Shown piece after piece: positions 18,332 through 31,750 of a stretch of DNA of 45,578 bases. The stretch comes from Acidimicrobiia bacterium. Lineage in GTDB: Bacteria; Actinomycetota; Acidimicrobiia; IMCC26256; PALSA-610. Within the stretch, counting starts at the first letter, position 1; each line of letters starts with the position of its first letter. A program made the translations under genes and the position numbers. The notes under the pieces are model-generated. The model had not been told where the DNA came from, ran no database searches, and worked only from the letters and a program-made list of their open reading frames with translations. The stretch spans positions 1-45,578 of the forward strand of contig JADGOO010000023.1 of NCBI GenBank assembly GCA_017882905.1, in the 5' to 3' direction.

Positions 18332-18374
18332 GATTGCGCCTGCGGCGCAGGTCTAGGCGATTGCGCCTGCGGCG
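18332..18374 (+). repeat. Direct repeat of 16 bp, two copies
   Basis: GATTGCGCCTGCGGCG occurs at 18332-18347 and 18359-18374, a 27-bp period. The second copy encodes the last residues of the racemase gene; its TAG stop lies between the copies. Each copy contains the near-palindrome TGCGCCTGCGGCGCA or part of it. Confidence 0.7.
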
Positions 18375-19504
18375 CGGGCCGCGGCGACCGCGTCGGGGTC
18401 CAGGCCCCAGCGCATGAGCGCGTCGTCGGTATCGGCGCCCGCACGGTGGGCCGAGTGCTGCACCGCGGCCGGCGTCCGCGAGAAGCGGGGCGCCGGCGCC
18501 GGCTGATCGACGGCGTCGACGGTGACGAACGTGTGACGGGCCACATGATGGTCGTTCGCGAGCGCGTCACGCGGTGCGAGCACCGGCGCGAAGCACACCT
18601 CGTAGCCCTGCATGTGCTCGATCCATTCGGGGCGGGTCCGGGTGGCGATCACCGCGGCAACCCGGTCCTTGAGCGCCGGCCATTGCGCGCGGTCGAACTG
18701 CTGCGCCGGATCGAGATCAGTGAGGCCGAGTCGTTCGCAGAACGCGGCGTAGAACTGCGGCTCCATCGCGGCGACCGACACGTACTCACCGTCGGCGCAC
18801 GCGTACACGCCGTAGAAGTGCGCGCCACCATCGAGCACGTTCGTGCCGCGCGGTCCCCAGCCGCCACCGGTCGCCGCGCCGATGAACGGCGCCATGAGCA
18901 GCGCGGTGCCGTCGATCATCGCCGCGTCGACCACCTGGCCGCGCCCGCTCGTGGCCCGCTCGACCAGCGCCGCGAGCACCCCCACCACGAGCAGCATCGA
19001 GCCACCGCCGAAGTCGCCGATGAGGTTGAGCGGTGGCACAGGTGGACCACCTGCGGCGCCGATCATGTCGAGCACGCCGGTGAGCGCGATGTAGTTGATG
19101 TCGTGGCCCACCTCGTTGGCCATCGGTCCGGTCTGGCCCCAGCCGGTCATGCGGCCGTACACGAGACGCGGGTTGCGATCGAGCGCCGCGTCGGGCCCGA
19201 TCCCGAGCCGCTCGGCCACGCCGGGCCGGAAGCCTTCCACCATCACGTCGGCGTGTTCGGCGAGCTGGAGCACGATCGGTGCAGCGCCCGGTTGCTTCAA
19301 GTCGATGCCGGCGCTCAGCCGGCCGCGGTCGAGGATCGAGCGAGCGGTGTACGGGCCTTGCAGGCCACTGTTCGCGTCGACGTGCGTCTTGCGATCGAGG
19401 CGCAGCACCTCGGCGCCGAGATCGGAGAGGATCATGCCCGCGTGCTGCAACGGCCCGATGTTCGGGATCTCGAGCACACGGACGCCTGCGAGCGGTCCGG
19501 CCAT
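18353..19504 (-). CDS. mcr: Alpha-methylacyl-CoA racemase (CaiB/BaiF family)
   Basis: A 383-residue family III CoA-transferase-fold protein of the racemase branch. MAGPLAGVRVLEI and GRMTGWGQTGP are typical. The catalytic acid-base pair is present as His134 (GHDINYIA) and Asp164 (GDFGGGS), the same spacing as His126 and Asp156 of the mycobacterial enzyme. It interconverts 2R- and 2S-methylacyl-CoA, which is needed before beta-oxidation of sterol side chains, phytanic-type and other methyl-branched acids. TAGGCT lies 8 nt before the ATG, and the LLM oxidoreductase starts 37 bp away on the other strand, so the two share a compact promoter region. Confidence 0.9.
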   Translation of the reverse strand: MAGPLAGVRVLEIPNIGPLQHAGMILSDLGAEVLRLDRKTHVDANSGLQGPYTARSILDRGRLSAGIDLKQPGAAPIVLQLAEHADVMVEGFRPGVAERLGIGPDAALDRNPRLVYGRMTGWGQTGPMANEVGHDINYIALTGVLDMIGAAGGPPVPPLNLIGDFGGGSMLLVVGVLAALVERATSGRGQVVDAAMIDGTALLMAPFIGAATGGGWGPRGTNVLDGGAHFYGVYACADGEYVSVAAMEPQFYAAFCERLGLTDLDPAQQFDRAQWPALKDRVAAVIATRTRPEWIEHMQGYEVCFAPVLAPRDALANDHHVARHTFVTVDAVDQPAPAPRFSRTPAAVQHSAHRAGADTDDALMRWGLDPDAVAAARAAGAIA

Positions 19505-22277: not shown

Positions 22278-23159
22278 TCAGTGGAGGTTGAAGACTCGCT
22301 GCGCGTTCTCGCGCAGGAACTTCGGCCACACGTGGTCGCGGAACGGCACGTCGGGCAGCTCGCTGAAGATCCGGTCGAGGTGCAGGCCGGCGGAGTAGTA
22401 GCCCGCGTAGATCATCTTGTCGGCGCCGCGCTTGTTGGCGAACTCGATGATGTCCTTCGGGTAGTGCTTCGGTGCGAACGCCGACGTGGAGTAGTAGAGG
22501 TTCGGCCACTTCAGCAGCATCTTGCACATGAGCGCCGTCCACGGCTCGCCGCCATGGCGCACCACGATGCGCAGCTCGGGGAAGAACCAGCAGATCTCGT
22601 CGAACGTGGCCACGTCGAGCGGCGCGAACGGGATGCGCGGCCCGGGTACGCCGCCGTACAAGAAGATCGGGATGTCGAGCTCCACGCACTTGGCGTAGAT
22701 CGGGTACATCTTCTTGTCGTCGTTCGGCACCTGCGGGTTCAGGCCCGCGCCCCACGTGTGCGCGGCGATCGCCCCGTGCTCCTTCACGGCCTTGGTGAGC
22801 GCTCGCACCGCGTCCATGCCTTCGTTCGGATCCACGTTGAACATGCCGCGGAACCGGTCGGGTTGCTCCTTGCACGCCCGCCGCCCGGCGCCTTCCTGCA
22901 ATCCCGGCACCATCATGCGGATGTTGTGGTTGTCCATCAGGCGCAGCACCTCGGCGACGGAGTCGTCGAGCTCGTCGTAGTGCGGAACGTCCTTGAACAT
23001 GTACTGCGCGGGCATCTCCATCGACTGCGTCTCCGCGTCGTGGGAGATGGCCCGGATGTTGTCGTACTTCTTCGCCTGCTCTTCCCGCGGTGCGGGCATG
23101 GCGAGGAACGTGTCGATCACGCCGTCGGCGCGCGCGGCTTCGAATGCTTCGCGGCTCAC
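22278..23159 (-). CDS. Amidohydrolase-fold protein (PF04909-like), paralogue 2
   Basis: A 293-residue protein of the amidohydrolase-2/ACMSD-like TIM-barrel group. Conserved segments are NVDPNEGMDAVRAL, PIYAKCVELDIPIFLYGGVPGPR, RIVVRHGGEPW, LYYSTSAFAPKHYP and a C-terminal VWPKFLRENAQRVF. The usual metal-binding HxH after the first strand is missing: the strand reads GVIDTFLAMP. The later His (RHGG) remains. GTG 23159 is chosen because it follows the upstream stop by 1 nt. It is a close paralogue of its neighbour. In this superfamily such proteins decarboxylate or hydrate acids, but with the HxH gone the chemistry is open. Confidence 0.82.
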   Translation of the reverse strand: MSREAFEAARADGVIDTFLAMPAPREEQAKKYDNIRAISHDAETQSMEMPAQYMFKDVPHYDELDDSVAEVLRLMDNHNIRMMVPGLQEGAGRRACKEQPDRFRGMFNVDPNEGMDAVRALTKAVKEHGAIAAHTWGAGLNPQVPNDDKKMYPIYAKCVELDIPIFLYGGVPGPRIPFAPLDVATFDEICWFFPELRIVVRHGGEPWTALMCKMLLKWPNLYYSTSAFAPKHYPKDIIEFANKRGADKMIYAGYYSAGLHLDRIFSELPDVPFRDHVWPKFLRENAQRVFNLH

Positions 23160-23160
23160 G

Positions 23161-24045
23161 TCAGGAAGCCTGGTCGAGCTTGAACACGCGCGTGGCGTTG
23201 TCGCGCAGGAACTTCGGCCACACGTTGTCGCGGAACGGCACGCTCGGCATCTCACTGAAGATGCGCTCGAGCGACAGGCCCATCGGGAAGTACCCGGCGT
23301 ACATCACCTTGTCGGCACCGCGTGTGTTCGCGAAGTTGATGATCGCTTCTGGGTAGTACTTCGGGGCGAAGGCCGACGTCGAGTAGTAGAGGTTCGGCCA
23401 CTTCAACAGCAGCTTGGCGGCGAGGTCGGCCCACGGCTCGCAACCGTGGCGAGTGACGAACTTCAGCTCGGGGAAGTACCAGCACACCTCGTCGATGAGG
23501 CCCACGTACTGCGGCGCGAACGGAAGTCGCGGCCCCGGCACCCCTGCGCACACGCAGATGGGGATGTCGAGCTCCACGCACTTGGCGTAGATCGGGAAGA
23601 ACTTCTTGTCGTTGATCGGCACCTGCGGGTAGAGGCCGGCCGGGAAGGCCGTGGCGGCCTTGATGCCGAGCTCGTCGTGCGCTCGCTGCAGATCGCGCAC
23701 GGCGTCCATGCCTCGGTTCGGGTCGACTTCCAGCGATCCGAAGAAGCGATCGGGGTGGCGCTTCACGGCTTGGGTGCCGAGGTCGCCCGAAGCGCGGTTC
23801 GCGACGCCGACCATGCCCTTGGCGATCCCGAAGAGGTCCATCAGCTCCACGAGATGGTCGACCTTGTCGGCGTGCTCGTCGAAGTGCGGCGGCTGCTTGA
23901 ACATGTACTGCGCCGGGAACTCGAAGTCTTCCTTCGATTCCTTGTCGCGCAGTCCCTGCATCATGAACTTGTAGTGCTCGCGGCGGTCGTCGATCGGGAA
24001 GCCGATCATGAGGTCGATCACGCCGATGTCGGTGGGCATCGCCAT
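23161..24045 (-). CDS. Amidohydrolase-fold protein (PF04909-like), paralogue 1
   Basis: A 294-residue TIM-barrel protein that shares most motifs with the next gene: SLEVDPNRGMDAVRDL, PIYAKCVELDIPICVCAGVPGPR, KFVTRHGCEPW, LYYSTSAFAPKYYP, VWPKFLRDNATRVF. Again the HxH of the first strand is replaced (GVIDLMIGFP). The ATG lies 7 nt after TACCGT, and an inverted repeat (24065-24085) like that at 912-927 covers the -35 region. The two paralogues are 1 nt apart and so form one operon, possibly a heteromeric complex. Link to acyl-CoA breakdown is inferred from the shared operator and neighbours. Confidence 0.85.
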   Translation of the reverse strand: MAMPTDIGVIDLMIGFPIDDRREHYKFMMQGLRDKESKEDFEFPAQYMFKQPPHFDEHADKVDHLVELMDLFGIAKGMVGVANRASGDLGTQAVKRHPDRFFGSLEVDPNRGMDAVRDLQRAHDELGIKAATAFPAGLYPQVPINDKKFFPIYAKCVELDIPICVCAGVPGPRLPFAPQYVGLIDEVCWYFPELKFVTRHGCEPWADLAAKLLLKWPNLYYSTSAFAPKYYPEAIINFANTRGADKVMYAGYFPMGLSLERIFSEMPSVPFRDNVWPKFLRDNATRVFKLDQAS

Positions 24046-24150: not shown

Positions 24151-24687
24151 ATGCGGCGGGCAGGACTGGTTGGGGCAGTAGCACTGGTCGTGGCGCTCGG
24201 CGTCGCGCCGAGTGGTGCGTACGGCGCTGGGCACGGCGCTCGAGGTGCTGCGCCGGCGGGCGTCGACTACAGCTACGCGTGCACCGTGACGGGTCTGCCC
24301 GGCCTCGTCTACACGGTGGTGATCAACGTGGCCGGCCATGTTCCGGCGACCGTCCACTCGGGGAGCACGTTCGTGGCCACCGGCATCATGTCGACCACCA
24401 CGTACCCGCTCACCGTCACGGTGCTGCACGGTTCGCTCCCGGTGCGGGCGAGCGGTGCCACCGCGCTGACGCACACCGAGCTCGTCACGAAAGGCCCCGT
24501 GGTGATCAGTGGCGGGGTGCCGTTCACGTCGGGCCCGATCAAGGTCCGCTATCGAGTCACCGGCGCGCCGGGCTCGCGCGTGGTGCTGCGGCCCGGAACG
24601 GTCACGGCGGATCTCGTCACGTACGGCCATGCGACGTGCCTGCTCGCCGCCGGTCAGCCGGCGTTCGCACGCGCCACCATCGTCTGA
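24151..24687 (+). CDS. Secreted protein of unknown function
   Basis: A 178-residue exported protein. The signal peptide (MRRAGLVGAVALVVALGVAP) probably ends near the Ala-Tyr-Gly-Ala region. The mature domain is beta-rich with two cysteines (SYACTVTGLPG and HATCLLAAG) that could pair. It has alternating Val/Thr strands like an immunoglobulin-type fold. No catalytic motif is seen. It is divergent from the amidohydrolases and 75 nt upstream of the thiolase-like gene, which has its own -10 element. Confidence 0.7.
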   Translation: MRRAGLVGAVALVVALGVAPSGAYGAGHGARGAAPAGVDYSYACTVTGLPGLVYTVVINVAGHVPATVHSGSTFVATGIMSTTTYPLTVTVLHGSLPVRASGATALTHTELVTKGPVVISGGVPFTSGPIKVRYRVTGAPGSRVVLRPGTVTADLVTYGHATCLLAAGQPAFARATIV

Positions 24688-24762: not shown

Positions 24763-25962
24763 ATGACGACAGCGGCTGATTGGGGTCACGCCGCCGAGCT
24801 CGACGACGTGAACGGCGAAGTCGCGATCGTCGGGATCGGCGAGACCGACTACACCAAAGCGAGTGGTCGTACGGCCGCGCAGATCGGTGCCGAGGCCGCG
24901 GAGCGGGCCATCGCCGACGCGGGCCTCGAGCCGCGCGACGTCGACGGGCTCACTTTCTCCGGCGCCTTCGCCGACTTCGGCGTGGCCGAGTTCCACGCGC
25001 ATTTCGGCACCGACCACGATATGTGGAGCTCGCCATGGGGCGGTGGCATGGCGTGGGCCGGAACCGCGCCGTACCTTGCCGCCGGCGCGATCGCCCGCGG
25101 CGAGGCCCGCCACGTGCTGAACGTGTTCCCCGTGGCGTGGGCCACGCAACGGTCGTCGATGACGGGCGGCCCTGGTGAGGTGCACGCGCAGCAGTCGTTG
25201 AAGCAGAACCTCGAAGTGCCGTTCGGCTTCTTCCCCCAGCCGGTGTACTTCGCGTCGATCATGCGACGCCACATGCTCGAGTTCGGCACCACGCGCGAGC
25301 AGTTCGGCGCCGTCGCCATCACGTTGCGCGAGCACGCGAATCGCACGCCGTCGGCGGTGTTCCGCGACAAGACGCTCTCGCTCGAGCAGTACCTCGGTGC
25401 GCCGATGCTCGCCGACCCGTTGTGCCTCTACGACTCGTGCCCGATCTCCGATGGGGGCGCGGCCTACGTGACGACGAGCCTCGAGCGGGCCCGTGATCTC
25501 GCGCGCGTCCCGGCGGTCGTGCGTGGCGTGGGGGAGGGGTACTCCGGGAGCGGCGGGCATTGGGCGCAACAGCGGGCGTTCACGAGCACGCCGCAAGTGT
25601 TCAGCACGCCCGGCGCGTTCGCGATGGCGGGGATCACCAACGACGACGTCGATGTGCTCACCTGCTACGACCCGTTCACCATCGTGTCGTTGATGCAGGT
25701 GGAAGACATGGGCTTCTGCGCGAAGGGCGAGTCGGGGCCGTTCGCGGAGTCGGGGGCGCTGCGCTTCGATTCGGGACGGCTTCCGTACAACACGCACGGT
25801 GGCCTCCTCTCGCACGCGTACGTGCTCGGGATCGCGCACGTGATCGAGTGCGTCAAACAGCTTCGGGGCGTTGCGGGCGCGCAGGTCCCCGAGTGCGAGG
25901 TGGCCGTGTACGGCGGCTACACGGGCCATATGGCGAGCACGCTCGTGCTCACGCGGAGCTGA
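24763..25962 (+). CDS. Thiolase-fold lipid-transfer protein, Ltp2-like
   Basis: A 399-residue thiolase-superfamily protein of the SCP-x/Ltp group. The N-terminal part (VAIVGIGETDYTKASGRTA) and the C-terminal YNTHGGLLSHAY fit. Where thiolases carry the nucleophilic Cys, this one has WGGGMAWAG, so it should not be an ordinary thiolase. Ltp2, a retro-aldol lyase of steroid side-chain degradation, likewise lacks it and uses tyrosines; Tyr302 (CYDPFT) and Tyr353 (SHAY) are candidates here. The next gene is a DUF35 protein, the known partner of Ltp2. Cleavage of a beta-hydroxyacyl-CoA to a ketone or aldehyde plus short acyl-CoA is thus the best guess. Confidence 0.82.
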   Translation: MTTAADWGHAAELDDVNGEVAIVGIGETDYTKASGRTAAQIGAEAAERAIADAGLEPRDVDGLTFSGAFADFGVAEFHAHFGTDHDMWSSPWGGGMAWAGTAPYLAAGAIARGEARHVLNVFPVAWATQRSSMTGGPGEVHAQQSLKQNLEVPFGFFPQPVYFASIMRRHMLEFGTTREQFGAVAITLREHANRTPSAVFRDKTLSLEQYLGAPMLADPLCLYDSCPISDGGAAYVTTSLERARDLARVPAVVRGVGEGYSGSGGHWAQQRAFTSTPQVFSTPGAFAMAGITNDDVDVLTCYDPFTIVSLMQVEDMGFCAKGESGPFAESGALRFDSGRLPYNTHGGLLSHAYVLGIAHVIECVKQLRGVAGAQVPECEVAVYGGYTGHMASTLVLTRS

Positions 25963-25964
25963 AC

Positions 25965-26417
25965 ATGGCGATCACTCGCGACGACTTCCCGCTGCCCGAC
26001 GTGCACGATCCCTTGACCGCACCCTTCTTCGCCGCCGCTGCGCGCGACGCGCTCGAGATCCCGCGTTGCACGGCGTGCGGCACCTACGTCTGGTACCCCG
26101 CGCCAACGTGTCCGGAATGCGGGTCGGGCGAGATCGAGTGGGTGGCGGTGAGCGGTCGGGCCACCCTGTTCACGTGGGTGATCGTGCAGCGTGCGTTCCT
26201 CCCCGCGTTCGAATCGATGGTTCCGTTCGTGACGGCATTGGTGGCCCTCGACGAAGATCCAGCCGTCCGGCTCTGCACGTACCTGGTCGACGTGGCCGAT
26301 CCCGCCGTGCTCACCGCGAATGCGCCGGTGCACGTGGAGTTTCGCGACCTCACCTTCGCCACAGTGCCCGGCCGTTCGGTGCGCGTGCCCATGTTCGCGG
26401 TGGGTGCGGCATCGTGA
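25965..26417 (+). CDS. DUF35 OB-fold/zinc-ribbon protein
   Basis: A 150-residue protein with an N-terminal helix, a rubredoxin-like zinc ribbon (Cys35, Cys38, Cys49, Cys52) and a C-terminal OB-fold (RATLFTWVIVQRAFLP and later strands). DUF35 proteins bind acyl-CoA and pair with thiolase-like enzymes; ChsH2 carries such a domain for Ltp2. It starts 2 nt after the Ltp2-like gene and its stop overlaps the following GTG by 4 nt, so the three are one operon and the first two probably form a complex. Confidence 0.9.
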   Translation: MAITRDDFPLPDVHDPLTAPFFAAAARDALEIPRCTACGTYVWYPAPTCPECGSGEIEWVAVSGRATLFTWVIVQRAFLPAFESMVPFVTALVALDEDPAVRLCTYLVDVADPAVLTANAPVHVEFRDLTFATVPGRSVRVPMFAVGAAS

Positions 26418-28615
26418 TCTACGACGATCTGCGGGTCATCGATCGCTCGCACACGCTCGCCGGCGCGTACTGCGCGAAGCTCCTCACCGACCTCGGTGCC
26501 GACACCGTGTGCGTGGAAGACGCCGCCGACATCGGCGCGCTCGATCCCGTGGCGCGTGCGCACCGCGACTACCTCCGCACGTCGCAACACAGCGTGAAGC
26601 CCGATGCCGCGGCGGCGCTCACGTCGCTCGCCGACGTCGTGATCACGGCGATGCCGCTCGACCGCGCCGATACGGACGGCGTGCGGGGCCCGCTCGTCTC
26701 GGTGTGCATCAGCGCGCTCGGCTTCGGTGGTCCCGACGATGCACTCAACTCGGTGGGTCTCACCGAGGAGCTGCTCCAGGCGCGCAGCGGTGCCCTCCTC
26801 GGCCACGGCCACATGACCGATGCTCCGCTCACGGTGGCAGGGCGCATCGGGGAGTACGTGGCCGGCGCGTTCGGCGCGCTGGGCGCGGCCACGGCGTGGC
26901 GGCGTGCATCACGCACCCGCCGTCCAGAACGACTCGACGTGTCGACGCTCGAGGCGATGCAGCTCACGATGCTCACGTTCCCGACGTTGTTCGCTCACTT
27001 CCCGGGCGGAGCGGCGCGGGCGCTCCGCTTCGTGATGATCCCGGGTAACGAGCCGTGTGGCGACGGTGACTACGTGGGCATCACCACGAACACGATCGCC
27101 CAGTGGAAGGGTCTGCTCCACGCCGCCGGGCGAGACGATCTCGCCGACGACAAGGACCTCTACACGATGCTCGGCCGGTTCCAGCGCGCCGACGACGTGC
27201 ACACCGCACTGCACGGATGGTCGCTGGCCCATACCGCGGTCGAGGTGGAAGCGGCGTGCGAAGCGAATCGTGTACCGGTCGCGATCGTGGGCAACGGGCG
27301 AACGTTGCTCGACTTCCCACACCTGCGTGAGCGGGAAGTGTTCGTGCCGCAACCGGGCCGCGAGGAGCTGCTGCGCCCGCGTGCACCGTTCCGCCTGCAC
27401 GGCGTGGCCGACCGAACGATGACACCTGCGCCGGAACCGGCGGCCGGCGCGCCGGCGTGGACGCCGCGCGAACGCGGCGTCGTCGACGACTCGATCGGCG
27501 ATGTGGAGCTCCCACTCGCGGGCACACGAGTGCTCGACTTCACGGCGTTCTGGGCCGGTCCGGCGGCCACGGCATGGCTCGCCGCGATGGGCGCCGACGT
27601 GATCAAGGTCGAGTCGGTGCAGCGGCCCGACGGCATGCGTCTCGCCGGTTCCACGAAGCACGGCGAGCCCGACGCCCACGAGGCTTCGCCCGTGTTCCAC
27701 GCCGCGAACCTCGACAAGCGCGGCATCACGATCGACTGCACTCGGCCCGAGGGTGTGCAGCTCGTGCGACGACTCGTGGCCACGTGCGATGTGGTGTGCG
27801 AGAACTTCACGCCTCGGGTGATGGAGGAGTGGGGACTCGACTACGAGGCGTTGCGCGGCGTGCGGCCCGACCTCATCATGTTGCGCCTCCCGGCGTTCGG
27901 GCTCACCGGACCGTGGCGCGACCGGCCCGGCTTCGCGCAGACCATGGAGCAGTTGTCGGGTATGGCGTGGTCGACCGGCTACGAGGGCGGCCCTCCGATC
28001 ATCGCCGGAGGTGTCGTCGATCCGATGGTCGGTGCGCATGCCTCGCTCGCCGTCGTCGCGGCGATCGCCCACCGCGACGCGACCGGCGAGGGTCAGCTCG
28101 TCGAGATGCCGATGGTCGACGTGGCCGTGGCGATCACCGCCGATCAGGTGCTGCGCTACCAGCTCACCGGCGACGTCGGTGGCCGGCGCGGCGCGGGTGG
28201 TGTGTACCGCTGCGCCGGCGGCGACAACGAGTGGGTGGCCGTGGCGCGCGAACGCGACCCGATCGATGAGTCGCAGCGCGCGGCGTGGTGCGCAACCCGC
28301 ACGAAGGAAGCCGCGGCGTCGGAGCTGATCGCCCAAGGGATCCCGGCCGTGCCTGCGACTCCCGGTTACGCCGCGCTCGATGATCCACAGATGCGCGCGC
28401 GCGGATTCTTCGAACGGTTGAAGCACTCGGTGGCAGGCGAGCAGCAGTTCCCCACGTGGCCGCTGCACAGCACGGCCGGTCCGCGCCGGTACGCACGACG
28501 GCCCGCCCCCACGTTGGGCGAGCACAACGATGAGGTGCTCGCCGAGATCGGCGTGCCGCCCGACGAGATCGCGAGACTGCGCGCCGACTACATCATTGGC
28601 GAAACCCCGCTCTGA
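26414..28615 (+). CDS. Fused double CaiB/BaiF CoA-transferase family protein
   Basis: A 733-residue protein with two family III CoA-transferase domains in one chain, about residues 1-340 and 360-733, joined by a Pro/Ala-rich linker (PAPEPAAGAPAW). The second domain is complete: GTRVLDFTAFWAGPAATAWLAAMGADVIKVE, NLDKRGITIDC, CENFTPRVM, and a candidate catalytic Asp in GGVVDPMVGAHASL. In the first domain the N-terminal strand is shortened and the corresponding position reads GRIGEYVAGAFGAL, with Glu rather than Asp. So one active site may be lost or changed. Start GTG 26414 overlaps the DUF35 stop. It would load CoA onto the acid metabolised by this operon, or accept it from a product. Confidence 0.87.
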   Translation: MIYDDLRVIDRSHTLAGAYCAKLLTDLGADTVCVEDAADIGALDPVARAHRDYLRTSQHSVKPDAAAALTSLADVVITAMPLDRADTDGVRGPLVSVCISALGFGGPDDALNSVGLTEELLQARSGALLGHGHMTDAPLTVAGRIGEYVAGAFGALGAATAWRRASRTRRPERLDVSTLEAMQLTMLTFPTLFAHFPGGAARALRFVMIPGNEPCGDGDYVGITTNTIAQWKGLLHAAGRDDLADDKDLYTMLGRFQRADDVHTALHGWSLAHTAVEVEAACEANRVPVAIVGNGRTLLDFPHLREREVFVPQPGREELLRPRAPFRLHGVADRTMTPAPEPAAGAPAWTPRERGVVDDSIGDVELPLAGTRVLDFTAFWAGPAATAWLAAMGADVIKVESVQRPDGMRLAGSTKHGEPDAHEASPVFHAANLDKRGITIDCTRPEGVQLVRRLVATCDVVCENFTPRVMEEWGLDYEALRGVRPDLIMLRLPAFGLTGPWRDRPGFAQTMEQLSGMAWSTGYEGGPPIIAGGVVDPMVGAHASLAVVAAIAHRDATGEGQLVEMPMVDVAVAITADQVLRYQLTGDVGGRRGAGGVYRCAGGDNEWVAVARERDPIDESQRAAWCATRTKEAAASELIAQGIPAVPATPGYAALDDPQMRARGFFERLKHSVAGEQQFPTWPLHSTAGPRRYARRPAPTLGEHNDEVLAEIGVPPDEIARLRADYIIGETPL

Positions 28616-29748: not shown

Positions 29749-31056
29749 ATGTCCGACGCGCGCGCCGCCCTCGACTCCGAGAGCGAAGCCGTCGCCGAAG
29801 CGTTCGAAGACGGGGATGTCGCGTTCGAACGGGGCACCGCCCGTGCCGCCCTACGCCACCGCAACTTCCGGATCTTCTGGGGTGGGCTGTTCGCATCGAA
29901 CATCGGCACGTGGATGCAGAACATCATCGTCGCGGCCTACGTCCAGACGCTCACCCACGACGCCCGCTGGGTGGGTGTGGTCTCGTTCGCGCAGCTCGGA
30001 CCGTTGCTGTTGCTCTCGAACCTGAGTGGCATGCTCGCCGACACCGTCGACCGCCGTAAGTACCTCATCACCATGCAATGCGCGCAGCTCGTCGGGTCGA
30101 TCGTGCTGGCGGGCGTTGCGCTGGCCAAGCATCCGTCGCCGTGGACGATCTTTGCGTGCATGCTCGCGATCGGTGTCGCCAACGCGCTGGGCGGTCCGGG
30201 GATGAGTGCGATCGCACCGTCGTTGGTTCCCAAGGAAGATCTCTCGGGTGCGGTGTCGCTGTTCTCGTTCCAGATGAACATGTCGCGCGTGATCGGTCCG
30301 ATCATCGGCCAGGTGCTGTTCACACAGAGCGGTCCGGCGCTCGTGTTCTTCGTGAACGCGCTCACGTACCTCTTCGCCGTCTACTCGCTGGTCGCAGCGA
30401 GCTACCCGCGGCGCGTGAACGCCAACGTGGCCGGTGGGGTGTGGAACCGGTTCGCTTCGGGGTTCCGGCTGGCCTGGCGAGATCCGCTGGTGCGCCGAGT
30501 GCTGTTCATCTTGTGGACGATGTCGTTCATCTCGCTGAACTTCATCTCGTTCATGGCCACGCACGCCCAGGTGAACCTCGGCATCGACCCCAAGTCGGAT
30601 CCGTACGGCGTGCTCTACGGCCTGTTTGGCCTCGGGGCCGCCGCGGGCGCGATGAGCGTGGGGTCCGTGTTCGCCCGCCGCGACAAGGCCGCGCTGGTGC
30701 GACCCGGATTGTTCGCGTTCGCAGCGTCGCTCGCCGTGTTCGCGCTCCTGCGCGGTCCGGTCGCGGCGTACTTCGTGGTGATCCCGCTCGGCTACGCCTA
30801 CTTCGTGGTGGTCACGTCGCTCTCGACCGTGTTGCAGCAGCACATCAGCGACGACGTGCGCGGCCGCGTGATGGCGCTTTGGATCATGGGCTTCGGCGGC
30901 TCGGTGGGCCTTGCCGGGCTCGTGCTCGGCCCGGTCGCACAATGGTCGGTGAGCAACCTGCTCCTGGTCGGTGCCGTGTGGGCCGTGGTGCTCGCTCTGT
31001 TCTCGGCGACGCGCCGCCTGCAATCGGAGGAAGCAATCGATGCTCATGCAGCTTGA
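29749..31056 (+). CDS. MFS transporter (enterobactin exporter/MFS_3 type)
   Basis: A 435-residue membrane protein with a cytoplasmic N-terminus of about 40 residues and roughly ten to twelve hydrophobic segments. LRHRNFRIFWGGLFASNIGTWMQ starts the first segment, and SGMLADTVDRRKYL is the conserved loop between helices 2 and 3. FQMNMSRVIGPIIGQ and HISDDVRGRVMALW are typical of the MFS_3 group, which exports siderophores and drugs. The substrate is unknown. The next gene overlaps its end by 17 nt. Confidence 0.88.
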   Translation: MSDARAALDSESEAVAEAFEDGDVAFERGTARAALRHRNFRIFWGGLFASNIGTWMQNIIVAAYVQTLTHDARWVGVVSFAQLGPLLLLSNLSGMLADTVDRRKYLITMQCAQLVGSIVLAGVALAKHPSPWTIFACMLAIGVANALGGPGMSAIAPSLVPKEDLSGAVSLFSFQMNMSRVIGPIIGQVLFTQSGPALVFFVNALTYLFAVYSLVAASYPRRVNANVAGGVWNRFASGFRLAWRDPLVRRVLFILWTMSFISLNFISFMATHAQVNLGIDPKSDPYGVLYGLFGLGAAAGAMSVGSVFARRDKAALVRPGLFAFAASLAVFALLRGPVAAYFVVIPLGYAYFVVVTSLSTVLQQHISDDVRGRVMALWIMGFGGSVGLAGLVLGPVAQWSVSNLLLVGAVWAVVLALFSATRRLQSEEAIDAHAA

Positions 31057-31750
31057 AGACGCGAGCGCCGACGAACGGGCCGCGGCCTACCGCGGCATCC
31101 GCGCTCGTGTGCGCGTGATCGTGGAAGCGGCCGCGGCGGGCACACTCGACGCGCCGTGCGCGCCGACACCGGCATGGAGTGTGCACGACGTGCTCGCGCA
31201 TCTCGTGGGCGTGCCGTCCGACATCCTCGCCGGGCGCCTCGACGGCGTGGCCTCCGACGCGTGGACGCAAGCACAAGTTGATGCCCGCCGTGACACCTCC
31301 GTCGGGGAGATGCTCGACGCGTGGGACGTCGATTCGGCGCTCGTCGAGCCGATGATGAGCGCGTTCCCGCCCGCCACGCTCGGCCAGATGATCTATGACG
31401 CGACCACGCACGAACACGATCTGCGCCACGGTCTGGGCGCGTGCGGTGCGCACGACACCGACGCGGTCGTGCAGTCGTTTGCGTGGCTCGTGCTCGTGGC
31501 GGGCGCCGGTCGGGACGCGGCGCTCGAGCTGCGAACAGAGGCCGGCGATGTGGTGGTGGGCAACGGCGATCCGGTGGCCACGATCGGCCTGAGTCGCTTC
31601 GAGTTCGTGCGGGCGGCGTCGGGGCGGCGCAGCGCCGAGCAGATCGCCGCCTACGACTGGCACGGGAGCGACCCGCGTCCGGAGCTGCTCCTCACCGCAC
31701 CGCTCTTCTCGCTCGCCACGGCCGCGCTGCACGAGGCGCCGACCGCCTGA
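31040..31750 (+). CDS. Maleylpyruvate isomerase/DinB-family, mycothiol-type protein
   Basis: A 236-residue protein of the actinobacterial maleylpyruvate isomerase N-terminal family, a DinB-like four-helix bundle that binds a metal and uses mycothiol. WSVHDVLAHLVGVPSDILAG and DATTHEHDLRHGLG carry the metal-binding histidines, and a C-terminal SCP2-like part (LELRTEAGDVVVGNGDPVATIGLSRFEFVRAASG) is present. It starts inside the MFS gene at ATG 31040 with GGAGG 9 nt upstream. The exact reaction is unknown; members isomerise or conjugate small electrophiles. Confidence 0.85.
   Translation: MLMQLEDASADERAAAYRGIRARVRVIVEAAAAGTLDAPCAPTPAWSVHDVLAHLVGVPSDILAGRLDGVASDAWTQAQVDARRDTSVGEMLDAWDVDSALVEPMMSAFPPATLGQMIYDATTHEHDLRHGLGACGAHDTDAVVQSFAWLVLVAGAGRDAALELRTEAGDVVVGNGDPVATIGLSRFEFVRAASGRRSAEQIAAYDWHGSDPRPELLLTAPLFSLATAALHEAPTA

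Follow-up and report, generated by a model that had tools for sequence, protein, structure and literature searches.

A cysteine-less thiolase-fold protein, its DUF35 partner and a fused CoA-transferase: a predicted catabolic gene unit in Acidimicrobiia

What reaction might be catalyzed by a thiolase-fold protein that lacks the nucleophilic cysteine, and how might it cooperate with the coenzyme A (CoA)-transferase encoded beside it? The question is raised by three consecutive genes, for the proteins P0001, P0002 and P0003, on contig JADGOO010000023.1 of an Acidimicrobiia bacterium from an uncultured lineage (assembly GCA_017882905.1), analysed over all its 45,578 nucleotides (the window), that is, one entire contig of a 4.36-Mb genome in 259 contigs. 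The unit most likely acts like the Ltp2-DUF35 aldolase joined to a BbsEF-like CoA-transferase; a catabolic module that transfers CoA onto an acid and then, aided by the DUF35 protein, cleaves a β-hydroxyacyl-CoA by a retro-aldol reaction is given a probability of roughly 0.6.

The three genes and the active site of P0001

24763..25962, + strand: thiolase-fold protein P0001, predicted Ltp2-like retro-aldolase; ATG start, 399 aa, with a dyad of Tyr302 and Tyr353 and a YDPF motif but without the nucleophilic Cys
25965..26417, + strand: DUF35 partner P0002, ChsH2-type zinc ribbon plus OB fold; ATG start, 150 aa
26414..28615, + strand: fused two-domain family III (CaiB/BaiF) CoA-transferase P0003; GTG start, 733 aa, Asp536 in the C-half and Glu147 in the N-half

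The three reading frames are intact, and the layout proposed in the initial annotation holds: the P0002 gene begins 2 nt after the stop of the P0001 gene, and the GTG start of P0003 shares 4 nt (GTGA) with the stop of P0002, the overlap that joins the pair to the CoA-transferase being located at the DUF35/CoA-transferase junction. The Pfam domains are Thiolase_C_1 in P0001 (4e-41), zf-ChsH2 and OB_ChsH2_C in P0002, and CoA_transf_3 in several stretches of P0003 (1e-112). The source genome has 19 thiolase-fold and 21 DUF35 matches in total, and a CoA-transferase domain was found in the flanks (up to ~1.5 kb) of none of the 18 other DUF35/thiolase loci fetched from it. One thiolase-like match outside the window (G000:C239:6532-7617) has one in-frame TGA, and may be a pseudogene or reflect a mistake in the assembly.

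Regarding the active site, the nucleophile loop of P0001 reads SPWGGGMAWAG, at the place where true thiolases have Cys, as the initial annotation had noticed; its six cysteines (221, 226, 301, 319, 363 and 378) are all away from this position, and alignment with thiolases places a Cys at none of the active-site positions. Likewise, the thiolase motifs HDxF and GHP are not found in P0001, which has YDPF and SHAYVLG instead. In the same alignment, the Cys, the HDxF and the GH motif are kept by two archaeal thiolases (6esq, 7yvy), by BbsB (7pxp) and by L050, so that the alignment discriminates between the two classes. L050 is a paralogue of the true-thiolase type from a related genome. The missing Cys excludes P0001 as a thiolase of the bbs type.

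In TcLtp2, Tyr294 of the YDHF motif is the base, Tyr344 is the acid and His296 assists the oxyanion hole; the residues employed by CtSal are Tyr302 and Cys304, within YDCY, while thiolases have HDCF and the nucleophilic Cys (PMC12329534). Tyr302 of P0001, within CYDPF, aligns with Tyr294 of TcLtp2, and Tyr353, within GGLLSHAYVLG, aligns with Tyr344 (GEAYIHG in TcLtp2). Both tyrosines occur in every alignable member of the clade to which P0001 belongs, named here after its YDPFT motif, and YDPFT and GGLLSHAYVLG are preserved across this clade; such retention points to selection on the active site.

As for the fold, the AlphaFold model of P0001 (mean predicted local distance difference test, pLDDT, 84.5) has Ltp2 (6ok1) as its top structural match, with Z 49.2, followed by 4u4e and Sal at Z 46 and by thiolases at Z ~44 or below; by sequence, the best PDB match is 4u4e (1e-58) and the second is Ltp2. 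In a maximum-likelihood tree, 33 YDPFT sequences group as a separate clade with ultrafast bootstrap (UFBoot) 100, some of them being the same locus reached via two collections, so that the independent genomes are slightly fewer; Ltp2 joins a YDAF clade, with support 100, apart from the YDPFT one. P0001 is thus Ltp2-like, but it is not Ltp2, an identity ruled out by the tree, by the replacement of the oxyanion His with Pro and by the lack of an attached MaoC domain. The likeness to Ltp2 first proposed is upheld by the missing Cys, the tyrosine dyad and the DUF35 partner; it does not extend to the clade, the oxyanion His or the MaoC hydratase.

Among the known relatives, the Ltp2-ChsH2(DUF35) steroid side-chain aldolase (TcLtp2, 6ok1) shares with P0001 the Cys-less thiolase fold, the two catalytic tyrosines and the DUF35 partner. 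The Sal-Shy(DUF35) bile acid aldolase (9myr) also pairs a Cys-less thiolase-fold aldolase with DUF35, but it has Tyr302/Cys304 and a Gln instead of the second Tyr, whereas P0001 has Tyr/Tyr. The thiolase-like protein 4u4e from Sphaerobacter thermophilus lacks the loop Cys, as P0001 does, and has its own motif, YDSF; unlike P0001, it lacks the second Tyr, the aligned stretch being THPGMYG. To our knowledge, 4u4e has no assigned function. There are many Cys-less thiolase-fold proteins that have a DUF35 partner, and most are annotated as lipid-transfer proteins or thiolases; the characterised aldolases of this type that we know of have steroid side chains as substrates. This aldolase chemistry would reach another class of acids through a conserved clade whose partner is a CoA-transferase, and not a hydratase; YDPFT, SHAYVLG and Asp536 of P0003 offer residue-level marks for annotating relatives, and the unit itself is a compact three-gene set for expression.

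P0002, P0003 and the conservation of the unit

P0002 is encoded directly beside P0001, as in Ltp2-type aldolases and as the initial annotation had it. Its zinc ribbon, CxxC...CxxC, comprises Cys35, 38, 49 and 52, and its closest PDB relative is the ChsH2 DUF35 of the Ltp2 complex; in Ltp2 this partner is fused to MaoC, while P0002 contains zf-ChsH2 and OB and no MaoC hydratase, and the gene that completes the unit encodes a CoA-transferase rather than a hydratase.

P0003 is a fused protein with a repeated CoA_transf_3 domain, as first described, and has the active-site Asp in one half. Structure comparison, which covers residues 363-732 (the C-half), gives a family III fold, with YfdW at Z 30.2 and BbsEF at Z 29.4 and 32% identity; BbsEF is also the nearest solved relative by sequence, and the N-terminal half, searched by sequence against the PDB, gave no match. 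Asp536 aligns with BbsEF Asp178, the residue forming the CoA adduct in entry 9fol, and is unchanged in all the aligned homologues of P0003; the equivalent position of the N-half is Glu147, replaced by Ser in L035 and L044 and by other residues in remote paralogues. Because the position is invariant in the C-half and variable in the N-half, the former is probably catalytic and the latter structural. P0003 therefore lacks the catalytic Asp in both halves that a homodimer-like member would have, a feature that two-subunit members do not require. The racemase motif GHDxNY is not found in P0003, which has PGFAQTMEQ where W17, the racemase homologue of the window, has GHDINY. Two family III domains in one chain also occur in DddD, the dimethylsulfoniopropionate CoA-transferase/lyase, here compared by description only; this enzyme cleaves its own substrate, and has no thiolase or DUF35 partner.

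Co-occurrence of the three genes, the point on which the proposal of a unit could have failed, was followed in 296 genomes of the class, with thiolases assigned to the clade at an identity of at least 58%. A clade thiolase is present in 32 genomes, all of one order, and a P0003 homologue adjoins it in 26; one locus ends at a contig edge (G010) and five have no adjacent CoA-transferase. Starting from the transferase, 18 loci, the window among them, have a P0003 homologue of at least 46% identity; in all but one, which starts at a contig edge, the thiolase gene is the immediate neighbour or no more than three genes away, and a DUF35 gene is called in 16 of the 18. L034 has room for a DUF35 gene, but none is called. 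In the family to which the window belongs, the orthologues are 73-83% identical for the thiolase and 57-65% for the CoA-transferase, the latter being present, at about 59-65%, in 12 of 14 genomes (counting the window's own) and split in two stretches in one. In another family the CoA-transferase gene comes first, followed by those for the thiolase and DUF35, and most of the junctions overlap by 4 nt; the unit thus occurs in two gene orders with short overlaps, which rules out chance adjacency, and nothing speaks more strongly for a shared pathway than a linkage that survives rearrangement. A phylum-wide sample of 395 other genomes, searched at 1e-110, gave no more clade thiolases, although it took few genomes of the window's order and says little about that order. 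A clade thiolase is also carried by a metagenome-assembled genome labelled Deltaproteobacteria (locus L124, possibly misbinned).

Proposed chemistry and competing explanations

From these data we infer the activities, their direction and order, the formation of a complex and the class of substrate. In the proposed scheme, P0003, with Asp536 in its C-half and the N-half in the role of degenerate partner within a pseudo-heterodimer, would shift CoA onto a carboxylic acid; the acyl-CoA that gives it up would most likely be succinyl-CoA or the one released by the pathway itself. Possibly after other steps, a β-hydroxyacyl-CoA would be split by the P0001-P0002 complex in a retro-aldol reaction: Tyr302 would accept the proton of the β-hydroxyl, the C-C bond would break to give a ketone or an aldehyde, and Tyr353 would protonate the enolate, yielding a shortened acyl-CoA. 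That a racemase homologue lies close by suggests an α-methyl-branched CoA ester as the substrate, whose cleavage would release propionyl-CoA. A bolder and considerably less probable extension has P0003 take CoA from the acyl-CoA that leaves the aldolase and load it onto the next hydroxy acid, a single priming CoA thereby sustaining repeated, ATP-free cleavage, and makes the YDPFT clade a third branch of the thiolase-fold aldolases, independent of steroids.

Several observations weigh against the retro-aldolase module. Pro304 takes the place of the oxyanion His of Ltp2 (YDHF), and His351 that of the Glu preceding its second Tyr, so that the active site differs from that of Ltp2; moreover, the loop that bears Tyr353 (349-354) is modelled at pLDDT <50. 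Ltp2 falls outside the YDPFT clade, the sister group of which is uncertain (support 64-68), and we know of no clade member with known activity. Finally, the three-gene unit contains no MaoC hydratase, and in five genomes (G163, G043, G101, G147 and G126) the thiolase-DUF35 pair has no adjacent CoA-transferase, which indicates that a CoA-transferase nearby is not always required.

The last two points are those that a looser arrangement would account for, in which the two activities serve the same pathway at intermediates several steps apart, for instance the transferase on a ring-cleavage acid and the aldolase on a side chain: the pair stands alone in those five genomes, fused CoA-transferases occur without the pair in Mycobacterium, Haliea and others, and the unit has no hydratase or dehydrogenase to connect both reactions. 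The tight linkage, with its 4-nt overlaps and its persistence in both gene orders, speaks instead for close coupling, and this arrangement is regarded as possible but considerably less probable than the retro-aldolase module. It is doubtful, too, that P0001 works in the synthetic direction, adding an acyl-CoA enolate to a ketone or an aldehyde in a biosynthesis; aldolases are reversible in principle, but the CoA-transferase, the racemase and the amidohydrolase-like genes, together with the genes for a luciferase-type monooxygenase, SnoaL and a short-chain dehydrogenase/reductase (SDR) of relatives, look catabolic, and none of the neighbours seen is a biosynthetic marker, which makes this direction quite improbable. 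That P0001 is catalytically dead, and acts as a scaffold for the CoA-transferase or the DUF35 protein, would fit the loss of the thiolase residues; with the Ltp2 tyrosines and both motifs kept clade-wide, this is hardly credible.

The remaining alternative comes from the nearest described combination, the bbs operon of anaerobic toluene degraders (PMC10818641), in which the BbsAB thiolase, BbsA being of the Zn-finger/DUF35 type, and BbsEF bring the same three protein families into one pathway. By analogy with BbsAB and BbsEF acting in benzylsuccinate degradation, P0001 and the DUF35 protein would thiolyse a 3-oxoacyl-CoA and P0003 would activate the parent acid, a proposal favoured by the identity of the three families and by BbsEF being the nearest solved CoA-transferase by sequence. 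However, BbsB has its Cys (SACSAG) and LHDAF, while P0001 has SPWGGGMAWAG and YDPF and no active-site Cys; the structural ranking puts Ltp2 first, and thiolytic cleavage is impossible without the nucleophilic Cys according to the Sal study (PMC12329534). A bbs-like β-oxidation module is therefore improbable. The two systems also differ in that BbsEF consists of two polypeptides and P0003 of a single chain, and in that the bbs operon holds more β-oxidation genes. It follows that the initial remark, that such a unit was not known to have been described, holds in part: the three families had already been found together, but with a Cys-containing BbsB. A literature search, with subscription papers lying outside it, returned no paper joining DUF35, a thiolase or aldolase, and CaiB, or describing the present unit; within the literature searched, the constituent families are known and their combination with a Cys-less thiolase is new. 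Rv1866/Rv1867 are a possible mycobacterial counterpart, and no paper with both was found in that literature.

Neighbouring genes and related loci

The initial annotation overlooked that the conserved neighbourhood also includes divergent amidohydrolase-like genes and a racemase; with the genes downstream, its members in the window are:

23161..24045, - strand: divergent Amidohydro_2-like protein of 294 aa, in which the HxH and Asp metal ligands are missing; its gene is a neighbour conserved across the family
22278..23159, - strand: another divergent protein of this type, 293 aa long from the GTG start that the gene caller picked; the same ligands are lost
18353..19504, - strand: α-methylacyl-CoA racemase homologue W17, 383 aa, with GHDINY, GDFGGG and MEPQFY
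29749..31056, + strand: major facilitator superfamily (MFS) transporter; conserved downstream neighbour
31040..31750, + strand: mycothiol maleylpyruvate isomerase-like (MDMPI-like) protein, assigned by a weak Pfam match; likewise conserved downstream

In the window's family, the unit lies opposite one to three amidohydrolase-like genes, in most cases also with a racemase homologue, and is followed by the MFS transporter and the MDMPI-like gene. The racemase gene adjoins the amidohydrolase-like genes in relatives and is three genes off in the window; W17 matches MCR (1x74) with E 2e-102 and has all its His, Asp and Glu motifs. The amidohydrolase-like proteins and all their relatives at these loci have DLM/DTx and AGY/SGY in place of HxH and the final Asp, and retain a RHGCEPW-like motif; they may be metal-free enzymes or non-enzymatic proteins. 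The divergent gap is as short as 54-60 bp in L036 and L037, which suggests a control region common to the diverging genes; in the window, this gap contains an open reading frame of 165 aa with no Pfam match (24190-24687, + strand). A longer Amidohydro_2 protein is encoded between DUF35 and the CoA-transferase in L039, L075 and L124, and the neighbours in another family are genes for a luciferase-type monooxygenase, SnoaL, SDR and GFO/IDH proteins; because the neighbours vary between families, the gene context names no pathway or substrate.

Related sets occur elsewhere. A paralogous one (L046:182-17558, also L045, L047, L049 and L051) has a YDAF-type thiolase-like protein, Amidohydro_2 (DADCHILEPPDIW or near) and a fused CoA-transferase, with DUF35 called in L045, L046, L047 and L051; downstream in L046 are a CoA_trans gene and two genes that we take to resemble ipdB and ipdC, presumably a hint of steroid ring degradation. 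In L076, L085, L122, L127 and L170 (Acidimicrobiia and Prescottella), there are more triplets of thiolase, DUF35 and fused CoA-transferase, whose thiolase-like protein is of a third type (YDPFS, MSFSH/MSYSH). Finally, in L139 and other Mycobacterium loci (L141-L173), which have neither thiolase nor DUF35, a fused CoA-transferase lies close to a tandem pair of Amidohydro_2 genes; the same loci carry SDR and AMP-ligase genes and matches to the window gene at 1317-2501, read here as a cytochrome P450.

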